Positions 33,450 through 40,973 of a DNA stretch of 64,000 nucleotides are shown piece after piece. The position numbers and the translations under genes are program-made. The notes beneath the pieces are model-generated. The model saw nothing but the letters and a program-made list of their open reading frames with translations, had not been told where the DNA came from and searched no databases. Source of the DNA: a virus; the IMG/VR virus record IMGVR_UViG_3300032116_000166, positions 1 through 64,000 of that record, one strand, 5' to 3'. Each line of letters starts with the position of its first letter. Position 1 is the stretch's first letter.

Positions 33450-36400
33450 ATGCCAAAAAATGTTGTTATTACACCACTGAGTGGATTGGTTGATTTTTAT
33501 GATGCAGCCAGTAACCTAGACGCCAAAATTCAAATCGATGATGCTGGCAGTTTGAATATCTCAAACAGTGGCGGAACCTTGGTTTTGGGTAACGCCGCCG
33601 CCAACGTTTATATCGGTGATGGTACCAACTCCGTTGACGTTATCTTTGAACAGAACGGGGCTATCAGAGCACTTACTGGTAAGACTCTTACTTTAGGTAA
33701 CAGTGCTAGTAATATTGCTGTTCAGTCGCCACTAACAATTAATTCGCAAATATTAAATACTACCACAACTGGTTATTTCGAAGTTCGTCAAACAGTTAGT
33801 AGTTGGGGCAATAGTACTAGCCACCCAATCATCAAATGGGATTATAATGCTACATACGATGATCACTTGTACTTAGCAAGTGGTGGTAATGCCAGTGGCA
33901 CTACACAGACTGCACTTGTTGTTACTGAAAACGCAGGTGTAGTAATCGGAGCAGGACCAAGTTCCCCCAACAGTAGTAGTATTGTATCAACTGAGTGGTT
34001 TCGATTTGACAATAGTAGATTTACTATTTCAAGAAATGCAACTCAGTACCTAACCTTTGAAAATAGCGATACAACAACAAATCCAATCATTATTTCCTAC
34101 ACCGCAACAAATAATGCAAAACCAATAATATTTGACAGTAAGACCGATGCTGTCAATACAGCACCCACTGCTGGAACACTTGGATACGAGTTCAGAGTAA
34201 ATGGTACAAGTGCCCTAACGGTAAACACAGACAGGACTATTACTACCAACACAAATTTGAGTGTTGGTGGCACCCTCAGTGTTACTGGCAACTTAACTGT
34301 GAACGGCACAACTACTACAGTTAATAGTACCACAGTAACTGTGGACGATCCCATCTTTACTCTAGGTGGTGATACCGCACCAACTGTAGACGACAACAAA
34401 GACCGCGGAGTTGAGTTTCGCTGGCACAATGGTACTGCCGCCAAAGTGGGTTTCTTTGGATTTGATGACAGTACTGGCTACCTAACATTTATACCTGATG
34501 CCACAAATACCAGTGAAGTTTTTAGTGGTACAATGGGCGACATACAGGCTACCAACTTCCGAGGTGCCCTGATTGGTAATGCTAGTACTGCAACCAATGT
34601 GGCTTGGTCAGGAATTACCAGCAAACCTACTACACTTAGTGGTTTTGGAATAACAGACGCATTCTCCTCTAGTGGTGGTACCACAACTGGTAATATAACG
34701 ATTTCAACGGTTCAACCTGTACTAATTCTTAGAGACACGGACAATTCTGGAACAGGTGTAGGCCAAACAGGCTGGATAAGTTTTCAAGACAGTGCTGGTA
34801 CAGAGCGCGCATGGATTGGTTATGGATCCTCTGGGTCTACAGACTTCAACATTAGCAACAGTCGTGGACAAATTACAGCTGGCGGCAATATAATACTAAC
34901 TGCTGGTAACTATAATAGTTACAGCCCAACCCTAACAGGTACTGGGGCGACTGGTAGCTGGGCTATCTCAGTTACTAGTGCAGCTAACCAGTCTTCATCA
35001 GATGATAGAATAAAAGCACCTGCTGATGACTTTGCTGCAAACAAGAGATTTGGTTTTACTAGCTGGAACAACAACAATACAGCCCCATACGCAGATTACT
35101 TACACTTAAGAAGCTATACAGATAGTAGTGGCGGAAACGATAATTTGGTAATGTTCCGCAAAGACGCATTAGGAATGAGAATATGGCAGCAAACTTATGG
35201 TTCTGCTACTGCTTATTCTACATTCAAAGATGTTGCTTGGACTGATGGTACAAACTCAACTGGTACTTGGGGTATCTCAGTTACTGGCAGCGCAGGTTCC
35301 GTAGCATGGACTAACGTCAGTGGTAGACCAACAACAGTATCTAGCTTTACCAATGATAGTGGATACATTACAAGTGCTTTCTCAGGCTTTATGCTCAGAA
35401 GTACTTCAGTACAAGCTAACCCCAACACTAATTTTGTAAGCAGCGCATATCGTTTTGATCCCAACGCCAATAACCCTACAAATGAACACTACGCAATTGT
35501 TACCTACGGTAATGAAAGCAACGTTGTAGGTCAACTTGCAACACACTTCACATCTGGTCAAACTTTTACAAGAGCATACAATTCTGCATGGTCTTCTTGG
35601 AGAACCTTGTTAGATAGTACCAACTATAACAGCTATTCACCAACCTTAACCGGTACTGGAGCTAGTGGTACTTGGAGTATAAACGTTACAGGCAGTGCAG
35701 GTAGCGCAGGAAGTGTAGCTTGGACAAATGTTAGTGGTCGTCCATCAACTATTGCAGGACTGCTTGGTACAGATTCAGTAAGTGCCAACCCCAATGTTAG
35801 ACTTGGTAGCGGCTACTATCAAAACGATGCTGCTAGTTCTGCAAATAATTGGCCTGTTGGATCTTCAAGTTGGTGGCATCTGCACAGTGTTACACACAGT
35901 AATACTGCAAATTACTATTCTATGCAATTTGCAGCAGATTTTTATGCTAATAATTTATACTATCGTTCCACTAACGGAAGTGCCGCTACCAGCTGGTCTA
36001 GAGTATTACTTGATACAAACTACAATAGTTACAGTCCGACCTTAACAGGTACTGGTGCTAGCGGTACTTGGGGTATCTCAATCACTGGTAGCGCGTCATC
36101 AAATGTACTAAAATCTGGCGACACAATGAGTGGGGACCTATCCTTCTCAAACGGTAGAAAAGGCCTTGTAGGAGTTTACAACGCTTCTCAAACTCAGGCT
36201 GTTTTTGCCATGGGATCGTCATACCGATTAACCGACGGTGGAGCAAGTAATGTATATGGTGACTTCTATGGTATGGCTTGGTCTTATGATCCAGACTACG
36301 GTGGTGCTGGAAACAATCCACAATCTAAGGCAGGATTAGCACATCAATTATTGATAATGAATGCTGGTGTGACCAGAACCGCCATAGGTAATGGTATATG

Positions 36401-37778
36401 GACCAGTGGTGCAATTAGTCAGAACGGTAATCAAGTCTTACATGCTGGCAATTATACTAGCTACAGTCCAAGCCTAACAGGTAGTGGGGCCAGTGGTACT
36501 TGGGGTATAAATGTTACAGGCAACTCAGCTACAACGTCTCAAAGAACATTCTCCAATGTTCGTACCGACGGTATTAATAGAGGTTCTTACGGAGCTATAT
36601 CAATCGCAGGATCTAGTGGTAGTTATTCAGGTATTGATTTTACTGATGCTTCTGTTACTTTTATGGTCAGAACAAGTGACCAACTAACTGGCGTATACAA
36701 AAATAACAGTGCTTGGTTGTGGTATTTTGATGGTTCCGGCGTACTACAGGCCGGTTCTATTCCACAAAATAACATAAGCGGTGGTAACTTAGTCTCAGTA
36801 CTGCAACCAACTCACGGTGATAGCGGAAGATTAATACAGTCACTCAATGCCAGTGCCGGTAATGCCGTACAGTTTTATATAGAACATAACTTAGCCAATG
36901 TAGCCATAGGCAATTCACGCGGCAATATCAATATAGCTGCTGGATCATTACTACACGGTGGCAACCAAGTCTTACATGCAGGCAACTATACTAGTTACAG
37001 CCCTAGTCTTACTGGTAGCGGTGCTAGCGGTACTTGGGGTATTAGTATTACAGGTAATGCTGCTACAGCAACAACTGCTTCTAATACTACTGCTGTTGCC
37101 GGATATGATATTAGCTGGGGATACGTTGCTGGAGCTCCTTATTATATCTGGGGAACAGCAAGCGGTACAGGTACAACCAGAGTATATGCTGCTAGTGAAG
37201 TAAGTGTTGGAACCGCTACGTATTCCACATATGTAGGAAGCTCCAGCCTATGGACAACAGGCGGCCAAGATCTATACGGTCGTTCAAAGCGAGTAGCAGT
37301 AGCCTCTGTCGGTAACGTAGTATACAACTACGGTGGCGACTTTACTAATGCAGAAATTCAGAGTTCTTTATTAGTTACTGGAAACGTTACAGCCTATTCT
37401 TCGGATCGTAGATTAAAAACCAATGTCAAGCCTATCGACAATGCTTTGACAAAGATCTCCAAATTGTCTGGATTTACTTTTAACTGGAACGATACTGCTA
37501 AAACTTTGGCTAAGTATGACACAGAAAAAGTAGAAGTAGGCGTTTTTGCACAAGATGTTTTAGAAGTACAGCCAGAAGCAGTCAAATCGGCACCTTTCGA
37601 TGTACACTATGAAACAGGACAGTCTATATCAGGCGAACACTATTTAACGGTACAGTACGACAGACTTGTTCCGCTTTTAATAGAAGCAATAAAAGAGTGT
37701 TCAAACTATCTGGATAAACAAGAGGCCAGAATCAATAAACTAGAAGACATGTTAATGTCTTTATCAACAAAGGAATAA
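33450..37778 (+). CDS. Long tail fibre with C-terminal S74 intramolecular chaperone
   Basis: A 1442-residue protein. Its shaft consists of beta modules with at least six copies of a motif like NYxSYSPxLTGTGASGTWGI, many introduced by GNQVLHAG. The last 125 residues are a peptidase S74 (endosialidase-type) chaperone: SSDRRLKTNVKPIDNAL, then FTFNWNDT, VGVFAQDVLEVQPEAV and YDRLVPLLIEAIKE, ending in a coiled coil (KQEARINKLEDML). In this family the chaperone trimerises the fibre and is cut off autocatalytically before the Ser of the SDxRxK motif. Here that is Ser1318 (codon 37401-37403), with Lys1323 also present. Confidence 0.9.
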   Translation: MPKNVVITPLSGLVDFYDAASNLDAKIQIDDAGSLNISNSGGTLVLGNAAANVYIGDGTNSVDVIFEQNGAIRALTGKTLTLGNSASNIAVQSPLTINSQILNTTTTGYFEVRQTVSSWGNSTSHPIIKWDYNATYDDHLYLASGGNASGTTQTALVVTENAGVVIGAGPSSPNSSSIVSTEWFRFDNSRFTISRNATQYLTFENSDTTTNPIIISYTATNNAKPIIFDSKTDAVNTAPTAGTLGYEFRVNGTSALTVNTDRTITTNTNLSVGGTLSVTGNLTVNGTTTTVNSTTVTVDDPIFTLGGDTAPTVDDNKDRGVEFRWHNGTAAKVGFFGFDDSTGYLTFIPDATNTSEVFSGTMGDIQATNFRGALIGNASTATNVAWSGITSKPTTLSGFGITDAFSSSGGTTTGNITISTVQPVLILRDTDNSGTGVGQTGWISFQDSAGTERAWIGYGSSGSTDFNISNSRGQITAGGNIILTAGNYNSYSPTLTGTGATGSWAISVTSAANQSSSDDRIKAPADDFAANKRFGFTSWNNNNTAPYADYLHLRSYTDSSGGNDNLVMFRKDALGMRIWQQTYGSATAYSTFKDVAWTDGTNSTGTWGISVTGSAGSVAWTNVSGRPTTVSSFTNDSGYITSAFSGFMLRSTSVQANPNTNFVSSAYRFDPNANNPTNEHYAIVTYGNESNVVGQLATHFTSGQTFTRAYNSAWSSWRTLLDSTNYNSYSPTLTGTGASGTWSINVTGSAGSAGSVAWTNVSGRPSTIAGLLGTDSVSANPNVRLGSGYYQNDAASSANNWPVGSSSWWHLHSVTHSNTANYYSMQFAADFYANNLYYRSTNGSAATSWSRVLLDTNYNSYSPTLTGTGASGTWGISITGSASSNVLKSGDTMSGDLSFSNGRKGLVGVYNASQTQAVFAMGSSYRLTDGGASNVYGDFYGMAWSYDPDYGGAGNNPQSKAGLAHQLLIMNAGVTRTAIGNGIWTSGAISQNGNQVLHAGNYTSYSPSLTGSGASGTWGINVTGNSATTSQRTFSNVRTDGINRGSYGAISIAGSSGSYSGIDFTDASVTFMVRTSDQLTGVYKNNSAWLWYFDGSGVLQAGSIPQNNISGGNLVSVLQPTHGDSGRLIQSLNASAGNAVQFYIEHNLANVAIGNSRGNINIAAGSLLHGGNQVLHAGNYTSYSPSLTGSGASGTWGISITGNAATATTASNTTAVAGYDISWGYVAGAPYYIWGTASGTGTTRVYAASEVSVGTATYSTYVGSSSLWTTGGQDLYGRSKRVAVASVGNVVYNYGGDFTNAEIQSSLLVTGNVTAYSSDRRLKTNVKPIDNALTKISKLSGFTFNWNDTAKTLAKYDTEKVEVGVFAQDVLEVQPEAVKSAPFDVHYETGQSISGEHYLTVQYDRLVPLLIEAIKECSNYLDKQEARINKLEDMLMSLSTKE

Positions 37779-37779
37779 T

Positions 37780-38127
37780 ATGATTTCTTATAGTTATAAG
37801 GTAGACAGTGTTAGAACTGCCACAGTTGGTGGTTTACAGAACGTTGTTAAACAAGTAAACTACACTGCTACTGGTACTGATAGTGGCCAAAGTTTTTCAC
37901 TGCCAGGAAAGGTAGTATTGGACGATCCAGATCCTCAAAGCTTTATTAGCTTTCAAAATTTAACAGAGCCACAGGTAATTGCTTGGATTGAACAAAGTCC
38001 TGAAAACTTGGGCGTTAAAAACCACATTCAACTTGTGGTTGATAAAATGATCCAAGAAGCAACCTATCAAGAAACAGATATGCCTTGGGCTCCTCCTCCA
38101 GCACCCACCCCACCACCAGCACAATAA
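37780..38127 (+). CDS. Small fibre-associated protein with Pro-rich tail
   Basis: A 115-residue protein starting one base after the S74 fibre stop. The first 100 residues are a compact alpha/beta fold (SYKVDSVRTATVGGLQNVVKQ, GKVVLDDPD, EPQVIAWIEQSP). Proteins of this look are frequently encoded beside S74 fibres in aquatic phages. The end (APPPAPTPPPAQ) is a proline-rich extension. It may be a fibre-associated cofactor, but the function is not known. It is followed by a strong hairpin. Confidence 0.65.
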   Translation: MISYSYKVDSVRTATVGGLQNVVKQVNYTATGTDSGQSFSLPGKVVLDDPDPQSFISFQNLTEPQVIAWIEQSPENLGVKNHIQLVVDKMIQEATYQETDMPWAPPPAPTPPPAQ

Positions 38128-38137
38128 ATATAGCCAA

Positions 38138-38178
38138 AAGTAATTGATACAGTAACTACTGTATCAATTACTTATTTA
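38138..38178 (+). terminator. Terminator hairpin after S74 fibre unit
   Basis: A perfect 17-bp inverted repeat: AAGTAATTGATACAGTA at 38138-38154 and TACTGTATCAATTACTT at 38157-38173, then ATTTAT. A second small hairpin (CCTGA 38182-38186, TCAGG 38194-38198) stands between it and the next Shine-Dalgarno AAGGAT. The pair is therefore again tandem, though not overlapping. Confidence 0.72.
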
Positions 38179-38223: not shown

Positions 38224-39189
38224 ATGGCGTTACAAAGCTCTGGTGCTATTTCAATGTCAAATATAAATGTGGAACTTGGATACAGTGCCACAGCAACCAT
38301 TAGTTTAAATGATGGCCCTGTACGAGCACTACTACAAAGAAGTAGTGGAAACGTGTCTATGAGTGATGCACATGGAAAGAGCGCATGTGCCGCGTACGGA
38401 ACATTTATAACTTCTTATTGTAGCGGTTATAGTTTATATTATAGATATGCGAATGGAAGTTGTGGAACCTATGATACATTAATTGAAAATAATTCTACTA
38501 GTTGTGGATATTGTCCTCCTTCTGGTACATACGACAGCCAGTACTGTAGCGGATACAATTTATATTATAGGTATGCAAATGGAAGTTGTGGAACCTATGA
38601 CTCATTAGTTGAAAGTAATTCTACTACTTGTGGATATTGTCCTCCTTCTGGTACCTACTTAAGTCAATACTGTAGCGGTACTACGTTATACTATAGATAC
38701 GCAAACGGAAGTTGTGGGTACTACGACTCTATTTATGCGTATAACAGTACAACTTGTGGATGGTGTCAAACATATGGAGTACAAGTCGGTACTGAATGCC
38801 AAGGATACAATCTATATGACGTATACGCAGATGGAAACTGTGGTACTTATCTAGTATTTATAACTGGTAATGCAAATCAATGTGGTTACACTAGTGGAAT
38901 ATGTAGTGGATGTTCTGGTGCTAGCCAAGGCCTTGGCGGAGGCGATACTATGTACTACTATGTAGCTAGTGCTACAACTGGCTTTTGTGGTTGGGGATGT
39001 AATGGTGTATTTACTAGTGATTCTAATTGGGATTGTATTGCTACTGTTCAGGGAACTTATCCGCCCGGCGGGTCTGGTTATGTATATCTACAAAGAACAG
39101 GTTGCAGCAGTAACTTTTGTAGTGCAAGTTACAATGGGGCTTATACAAATGCGTGGACTTCAGCCTGGTGTGCTGTTACCTGTTGTTAA
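38224..39189 (+). CDS. Cysteine-rich repeat fibre protein
   Basis: A 321-residue protein. Residues 1-55 are a phage fibre N-terminal module (LQSSGAISMSNINVELGYS, SLNDGPVRALL, SGNVSMSDAHGKS). Residues about 56-225 hold four tandem units of about 41 residues: YC-SG, then LYYRYANGSCG, then NSTTCGYC. The fourth unit is more diverged. The remaining 95 residues are Gly/Cys-rich and end TCC. I count 26 cysteines (about 8 percent), exceptional for a phage structural protein. Cys-Cys spacing is regular, so each unit may close its own disulfides after export or lysis, or bind metal. No signal peptide is present. I recognise the repeat style from phage fibres but not a named fold. Confidence 0.75.
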   Translation: MALQSSGAISMSNINVELGYSATATISLNDGPVRALLQRSSGNVSMSDAHGKSACAAYGTFITSYCSGYSLYYRYANGSCGTYDTLIENNSTSCGYCPPSGTYDSQYCSGYNLYYRYANGSCGTYDSLVESNSTTCGYCPPSGTYLSQYCSGTTLYYRYANGSCGYYDSIYAYNSTTCGWCQTYGVQVGTECQGYNLYDVYADGNCGTYLVFITGNANQCGYTSGICSGCSGASQGLGGGDTMYYYVASATTGFCGWGCNGVFTSDSNWDCIATVQGTYPPGGSGYVYLQRTGCSSNFCSASYNGAYTNAWTSAWCAVTCC

Positions 39190-39200
39190 TAGGAGATAAC

Positions 39201-39644
39201 ATGAAATCTTATATAAAGATAGAGAATAATAAACCTACCGGCAGCATCTATGGACAAGACTATATGGAAAAATTGTTCCCTGAACATAATTTTTCTAGTG
39301 GTCCTCCTGCTAATTATGCAGAAATAATTTTAACTCCAAGACCGCCAGTACCCAGATTTCACAAGATAATTGTAAAAGATTATACTTGGGCGGGAGGTAA
39401 GTTGTATGATACTATTGAAGTAGTTCCAATGACTCTTGCAGAAAAAGAAACAGAAGTAGAGCGTGCAAAACTTAATTTTTATCGTAATACTGGATATAAT
39501 TCTTGGACATATAATACACAGTTAAATGTTTTTGAACCACCATTTCAACCAACAAACCCTGTCCAAGGGGGTAGGTATGAGTGGAATGAACAAAACCAAA
39601 ACTGGACACTAATAGGAGTTGAGGAGCCACCTAGTGCAACCTGA
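39201..39644 (+). CDS. Fibre accessory protein, unknown function
   Basis: The ATG at 39201 with AGGAGATAAC upstream is preferred over in-frame codons lying in the cysteine-rich gene, giving 147 residues. The N-terminal half is beta (YIKIENNKPTGSIYGQDYM). A helix (LAEKETEVERAKLNFY) precedes a C-terminal motif YNSWTYNTQLNVFEPPFQPTN..GGRYEWNEQNQNW. The last motif recurs in many aquatic phage tail-region proteins, which suggests a conserved accessory role for fibres. It overlaps the next gene by 11 bases. Confidence 0.65.
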   Translation: MKSYIKIENNKPTGSIYGQDYMEKLFPEHNFSSGPPANYAEIILTPRPPVPRFHKIIVKDYTWAGGKLYDTIEVVPMTLAEKETEVERAKLNFYRNTGYNSWTYNTQLNVFEPPFQPTNPVQGGRYEWNEQNQNWTLIGVEEPPSAT

Positions 39645-40254
39645 TAAACCATTTGAAGAAATAATTGCAGAAACACCTATAGGTACTATTGTTGCTGTAT
39701 ATGTAAAAAAGTTTGTTTGTGATAGTCCAATTTCTTTTGAGGTAACTATTAAAGAAAAGATGGCCAAGCATCACAAACCTTTTGACTACTATACTATCTG
39801 TTATCCAATAGGTAAAGTGCCTTGGCCAGAACCTCATGTTAACAGGATATACTTCTTTACTCCACCAAATCCAGTATATGTTCTATCAGCAGATGCTGCA
39901 CACCTTATTGAAGATTTTGACAGAGTTATTGCAACTATAGGTATAACACCGGAAGAAGCATCAAAACTGTACGCTGATCAGAACCAGAAAGTAAAAGAAT
40001 TTTTTAGCAAAAACTCTTCAGAAATGCCAAGCACTATGAGTATGGCTAAAAATTTGTTAAAACAAGGCTGGGATACTACTAGAGGACTATTAGAAGGTAA
40101 ACCTATATTTGTTAATGATGAAACCCAACAAAAACGATTAAATATCTGTAAGACCTGTGATCAATTTATAGATGGCAGATGTAAAAGTTGTGGTTGTTTT
40201 ATGGAACAAAAAACAAAACTTGAAGCAGCCACTTGCCCTATAAGTAAGTGGTAA
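39634..40254 (+). CDS. Protein with C-terminal zinc-ribbon-like cysteine cluster
   Basis: The start is taken as GTG at 39634, with GAGGAG about 8 bases upstream, giving 206 residues; a TTG 15 bases earlier is the alternative. The N-terminal 110 residues are an alpha/beta domain of unknown family. A helical linker follows. The last 40 residues (RLNICKTCDQFIDGRCKSCGC, then TCPISKW) carry two CxxC knuckles plus extra Cys, a probable zinc ribbon. This zinc motif is widely seen at the ends of small proteins near phage fibre genes. It is the last gene before a terminator. Confidence 0.62.
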   Translation: MQPDKPFEEIIAETPIGTIVAVYVKKFVCDSPISFEVTIKEKMAKHHKPFDYYTICYPIGKVPWPEPHVNRIYFFTPPNPVYVLSADAAHLIEDFDRVIATIGITPEEASKLYADQNQKVKEFFSKNSSEMPSTMSMAKNLLKQGWDTTRGLLEGKPIFVNDETQQKRLNICKTCDQFIDGRCKSCGCFMEQKTKLEAATCPISKW

Positions 40255-40382: not shown

Positions 40383-40973
40383 ATGGCAAGTCCAACAAAA
40401 CTGAACCTAAAAGTTTATCAGGGCAGTACCTTTCGTGAAACATTGCGTTGGGAAAGTGCTCTAAAAGTCTACTCACCTATCACAAACATTTCAAAGAGCG
40501 CCCCAATGATAGTCACTGCCGCAGGACATGGAATCCCGGTGGGTTGGCGAGCAAAAATTAATGGTGCCTTAGGAATGAAAGAAGCCAATACTGGTGATAC
40601 TTACCTAACTACCAGCGAGGTTACCACTAACTCAGTAACTTTCAATGCCATCAATGCACTAAACTATACAACATATACTGGTGGTGGGGTCTTGGAGTAC
40701 AATCAACCAGTAGATTTAGCCGGATACACTGCCAGAATGCAGATCAGGGCTAAGTTAGACGACACAGCCGTGATTAAAGAATTAACCACTACAAATGGTG
40801 GAATTATTATTGACAACACAGCAAAAACTATTCAAATGTATATTTCAGCCACCGACACAGCAGCCCTTTCTTTCCAGAATGCAGTGTATAGCCTAGAACT
40901 AGTAGGTAGTGGTGGAGAGGTTACTCAATTGGTAAATGGAACCTTAACCCTAGTTCGTGAGGTAACCAGATGA
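40383..40973 (+). CDS. BppU-like fibre adaptor, cassette 2
   Basis: A 196-residue protein, first gene after the promoter, with Shine-Dalgarno AAGGAG. The pattern LNLKVYQGSTFRETLRWES, then LAGYTARMQIRAK and a later SLELVGSGGEVTQLVNGTLTL, is that of small beta-sandwich adaptor domains that attach fibres to the tail tip. A central insert of about 50 residues (APMIVTAAGHGIPVGWRAKI and following) is common in this group. It corresponds in position to the 135-residue gene at 25160. It overlaps the collagen-like gene by ATGA. Confidence 0.68.
   Translation: MASPTKLNLKVYQGSTFRETLRWESALKVYSPITNISKSAPMIVTAAGHGIPVGWRAKINGALGMKEANTGDTYLTTSEVTTNSVTFNAINALNYTTYTGGGVLEYNQPVDLAGYTARMQIRAKLDDTAVIKELTTTNGGIIIDNTAKTIQMYISATDTAALSFQNAVYSLELVGSGGEVTQLVNGTLTLVREVTR

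Follow-up and report, generated by a model that had tools for sequence, protein, structure and literature searches.

A cysteine-rich gene downstream of a tail-fibre gene

The DNA analyzed here, called the window, is a 64,000-nucleotide stretch of a 65-kb IMG/VR virus contig whose DNA polymerase has its nearest relatives, at 49% identity, in T5-like phages of Vibrio and Pectobacterium. On its plus strand, an ORF at 38224 to 39189 encodes a protein of 321 aa with 26 Cys. Upstream on the same strand lie a tail-fibre gene (33450 to 37778; 1442 aa), which matches tail-fibre PHROGs and carries a C-terminal S74 (endosialidase-type) chaperone domain (PF13884, E 6.7e-17), and a small DUF7936 gene (37780 to 38127; PF25590, E 5e-15). 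This fibre gene (33450-37778) and the one at L001:77-4060 differ in their early part but appear identical from there on, as do the genes that follow them, a pattern suggestive of allele exchange.

A first-pass annotation of this DNA had described a 17-bp terminator hairpin ahead of the Cys-rich gene. A hairpin is present at 38138 to 38173 (plus strand), with a stem of 16 base pairs, of which 4 are G-C, and a loop of 4 bases; it is terminator-like but A/T-rich, with only a weak T tract. The next fibre cassette had been placed directly beyond the gene. Two small genes intervene, at 39201 to 39644 (plus strand) and 39619 to 40254, before the downstream fibre genes begin at 40383. The second small gene, situated between two fibre blocks, ends in a C-terminal CKTCDQFIDGRCKSCGCFMEQK motif recognized by Pfam as the zinc-ribbon-like DUF6171. 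Late-promoter-like ATAAATA sites showed no excess in the window (17, versus 14.9 in shuffled sequences).

Cys makes up 8.1% of the protein, as opposed to 0.61% across the 45 other genes of the window included in the count, and 26 of all 148 Cys counted are in this one protein. It comprises an N-terminal module (aa 1 to 54; 38224 to 38385), predicted from PHROG matches, synteny and a structural model to be a small helical docking module, followed by four tandem repeats (aa 55 to 222) and a 10-Cys tail. The first-pass annotation had counted the Cys and the four Cys-regular units exactly but had taken the unit as about 41 residues; judged by the spacing of the Cys, it is exactly 42. Cys occupy positions 1, 12, 26 and 40 of each unit, accounting for 16 of the 26: residues 55, 66, 80 and 94 in repeat 1 (aa 55 to 96; 38386 to 38511), 97, 108, 122 and 136 in repeat 2 (aa 97 to 138; 38512 to 38637), 139, 150, 164 and 178 in repeat 3 (aa 139 to 180; 38638 to 38763), and 181, 192, 206 and 220 in repeat 4 (aa 181 to 222; 38764 to 38889), the most diverged copy. 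All four are delimited by profile match, period and structural model. Repeats 1 and 2 differ at 12 of 42 residues and repeats 2 and 3 at 9 of 42, with dN/dS of about 0.2 and 0.16, respectively (dN 0.17 to 0.22, dS 0.84 to 1.37). The changes are thus mostly silent, and the low dN/dS indicates purifying selection on these copies.

The C-terminal region (aa 223 to 321; 38890 to 39189 with the stop codon) contains the other 10 Cys, the last two residues being Cys-Cys. It had no match in Pfam or the PDB, and in IMG/VR only an identical copy was found; the Cys-rich protein as a whole has an identical counterpart on an 18-kb contig. An LCCL domain, suspected by eye, was not confirmed, as the PF03815 profile matched nothing in the record of the window at a cutoff as loose as E 10, and none appeared in Pfam or the PDB.

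The N-terminal module is linked to fibre genes

The N-terminal module matches PHROGs 26817 (E 6e-8) and 26746 (E 6.5e-6), neither of which has an assigned function, and was found at 168 IMG/VR loci. Among the 68 distinct N-module genes with enough upstream DNA, 48 have an S74-ending gene directly upstream (within 700 bases), versus 18 of 1,025 other ORFs (2%). Of the 11 that also carry the repeats, 10 are placed in this way. The module likewise follows a fibre gene in Vibrio phages EniLVp02 and PhiImVa-1, where that gene is annotated as a fibre gene, and in Providencia phage PSTNGR1, where a profile identifies it as S74-like; in these isolates the module carries other C-terminal domains and no repeats. 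This synteny supports the placement among tail-fibre genes given in the first-pass annotation. The C-terminal parts of N-module genes vary freely, and the simplest reading of the gene order is that the segment would be a docking module with exchangeable distal parts.

Two observations run counter to the fibre placement. In the window, the DUF7936 gene and the hairpin separate the fibre gene from the Cys-rich gene, and the relative closest in architecture (L016:2089-3222; 377 aa, 40 Cys, six repeats) is not behind a fibre gene. By eye, it adjoins PstS-like and rubrerythrin-like genes; the two small genes on its 3′ side resemble those that follow the Cys-rich gene of the window, including the one at 39201.

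Several relatives behind fibre genes (L002:5545-6864, L019, L020, L066 and L088:3001-3954) end in Hint/intein-like segments with weak Pfam matches to PT-HINT and Vint, which suggests self-cleaving tail-tip proteins.

The 42-residue repeat represents an undescribed domain family

Scans with Pfam, NCBIfam and PHROG models left the repeats unassigned, and no significant PDB sequence match was obtained; a family of known function, named beforehand in the first-pass annotation as the outcome that would count against its view, was thus found in none of these four collections. A PDB profile match to 4mkm (E 0.066) consisted of fragments of a Gly/Asp motif and was judged to be due to chance. Literature searches returned no description of the 42-residue repeat. 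Two pattern-limited scans of IMG/VR yielded 121 and 93 confirmed loci in overlapping sets, so that at least 121 contigs encode the repeat. From 80 loci of each scan, we built a profile that identified 202 copies in 99 distinct ORFs of the collected loci. Judged by these sequences, the repeat is a real, coherent and previously undescribed domain family.

Among the ORFs listed, copy number ranges from one to nine, in proteins of about 100 to more than 2,000 aa. Pro- or Thr-rich linkers often join the repeats, and what flanks them ranges from fibronectin-like, Hint-like, collagen-like and glycine-rich segments to Thr-rich linkers; some copies are embedded in very long proteins that also have collagen-like, glycine-rich and fibre-like segments. 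Four loci (L050, L024, L013 and L039) encode short proteins with a single repeat and 14 to 16 Cys in about 130 aa, and their genes closely precede genes that by eye resemble T4-type tail sheath and tube genes.

Five repeat queries against 50,697 phage isolate records returned no copy; low-complexity filtering may affect Tyr/Ser-rich queries, and the last two queries, of more varied composition, were also without match. One consensus query found no copy in a plasmid collection. In BFVD, two uncharacterised proteins of uncultured Caudovirales have the repeat fold. Among uncultured environmental phages the repeat is common, yet it was found in no sequenced phage isolate searched.

Each repeat is predicted to be a small beta-meander

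An AlphaFold model of two repeats, computed from 49 real repeat pairs, reached a pLDDT of 93.7. Each repeat is predicted to form three antiparallel strands, a beta-meander, with a short helical turn. In a model of the full protein, all four repeats scored above 90, the helical N-terminal module about 70, and aa 227 to 321 below 50. A Foldseek search, proposed in the first-pass annotation, was run with the two-repeat and full-protein models; neither retrieved a PDB structure with an E value of 0.001 or below. Matches to ModE/ModG and HIN domains were not significant. The top weak match was the cyanovirin-N fold, which resembles the repeats in consisting of small Cys-containing beta repeats and is known for carbohydrate binding; with an E value of 0.2 and a TM-score of 0.25, this match was not significant either.

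Cysteines are gained and lost in pairs

Cys12 and Cys40 are present in all 169 distinct repeats. Cys1 and Cys25/26 occur together in 53 of them and are both missing from 114, with a mismatch in 2; the raw p value of about 1e-41 is inflated by kinship among the sequences, and tests capped by identity agree (at a 50% cap, 8 with both, 14 with neither and none mismatched; p 3e-6). The same holds for a further optional pair, formed by Cys15 and a Cys at about position 36 or 42: 15 repeats have both, 151 have neither and 3 are mismatched. Disulfides would lead one to expect such gain and loss of Cys by twos, and this signature supports them well, if indirectly. Of the explanations offered in the first-pass annotation for the Cys content, disulfides are thus strengthened by the fixed pairs and the two invariant Cys, with the pattern speaking for pairing rather than proving oxidation.

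Bacterial copies occur in GH43 lipoproteins

A scan of 84,980 species, using a profile from a 9-row alignment, found three clear copies of the repeat, all in Flavobacteriaceae. Two further genomes were obtained by sampling; a copy is carried by 4 of 300 Flavobacteriaceae genomes and 1 of 395 genomes of the phylum. In the four proteins read of these five (L090, L091, L166 and L167), a lipoprotein signal is followed by one two-Cys repeat and then by a GH43 arabinanase domain. SusC/SusD-like genes lie upstream of the gene at L090, as judged by eye. That the module is kept in an enzyme which is exported, anchored in the membrane and degrades glycans is consistent with a disulfide-bonded role outside the cell, and is a hint that it may contact glycans or act as a spacer.

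A fibre accessory protein as the favored role

We favor, at a probability of roughly 0.55, a fibre accessory protein that docks through its N-terminal module and whose disulfide-stapled repeats form a host-binding rod or the support of one. The module would dock the protein onto the tail fibre or baseplate, and the four repeats would line up as small three-stranded beta-meanders, each held shut by the invariant disulfide Cys12-Cys40 and the optional disulfide Cys1-Cys26. These bonds may form after lysis, on contact of the virion with oxidizing water, to give a protease-resistant rod rich in Tyr, Gly and Ser. The rod would hold out, or itself be, a host-binding surface, probably directed toward surface glycans. 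The protein would probably sit at the tip of the fibre, as part of the virion and with its Cys oxidized; that the Tyr-rich rod binds a receptor there is a reasonable inference.

The main rival to receptor binding is a stalk: the repeats may be a spacer that stiffens and extends, with host binding left to the C-terminal 10-Cys domain or to the fibre itself. We consider this possible, though not probable. The variable copy number and the frequent Pro- or Thr-rich linkers are as expected of such a spacer, the single GH43 copy lies between a lipid anchor and a catalytic domain, and the parts C-terminal of the repeats differ among relatives. In the relatives at L058 (possibly cut by the contig end), L017, L035 and L046, however, the protein ends in a repeat or a few residues later, so that nothing larger is held out, and the conserved Tyr and Gly positions seem more than a stalk would need.

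Two further alternatives question the virion or the disulfides themselves. The protein could be a non-virion factor, secreted or intracellular, for example a Cys-rich protein acting at lysis or in relation to superinfection. This would suit a gene in its own segment after a hairpin and the location of the 40-Cys relative beside apparently non-structural genes, but we regard it as unlikely given the strong tie of the N-terminal module to fibre genes, the presence of repeats within very long proteins with collagen-like, glycine-rich and fibre-like segments, and an N terminus in which no export signal was seen by eye. Metal-bound knots, also raised in the first-pass annotation, would mean that the Cys ligate zinc or another metal and that the units fold without disulfides in the reducing cytoplasm. 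With four Cys in each of its repeats, the protein could hold a metal in this way, and the nearby gene ending at 40254 has its own zinc-ribbon-like motif; nevertheless, we consider metal binding the least likely of these alternatives. Zinc knots and zinc ribbons require four conserved Cys/His ligands per unit, whereas about two-thirds of the distinct repeats retain only the two core Cys, the other Cys vary by twos and not by fours, no His is conserved across the family alignment, and two-Cys copies are found in exported lipoproteins.

The favored fibre accessory role could be extended to the family as a whole. The 42-residue unit may be a new disulfide-stapled glycan-binding module, whose arrays of one to nine copies would serve environmental phages as an all-purpose receptor-binding cassette, swapped among unrelated tail proteins. 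Bacteroidota would have the module as well, in glycan-degrading enzymes of their cell surface. We put this forward as a speculative proposal, on balance rather doubtful.

Comparison with known systems

In T2/S16-like phages, gp38 is encoded behind the distal fibre gene. It is a separate small protein that caps the fibre and carries the variable binding parts (PMC6630733). As a class, the N-module genes resemble gp38 in lying directly behind a fibre gene (48 of 68 loci), although one small gene intervenes in the window. They differ from it in that Pfam and PHROG scans gave no gp38 match, the predicted structure consists of Cys-rich beta-meander repeats with no polyglycine II sandwich, and the fibre gene of the window has its own S74 chaperone.

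Agrobacterium phages Milano and 7-7-1 have Cys-rich structural proteins whose disulfides add robustness to the mature particle (PMC10491603, PMC12796354), and Milano is the precedent for virion disulfides in a phage (PMC10491603). Those bonds mostly cross-link subunits of the capsid, neck, collar and sheath within a Cys-rich proteome (1.4%), whereas in the window a single protein holds 26 of 148 Cys and pairing appears to take place within each repeat.

The repeat is an unnamed domain family across uncultured phage tail proteins with a clear disulfide pattern; it would offer a small, autonomous and probably very stable binding scaffold, and it bears on how phages produce disulfide-rich parts in a reducing cytoplasm. 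The link to GH43 raises the hypothesis that the ligands are plant or algal arabinan-like glycans. The homologous copy in the arabinanase lipoproteins follows directly after the lipobox and has both invariant Cys; unlike the phage arrays, these copies are single, lack the optional Cys pair, are attached to an enzyme and are rare.
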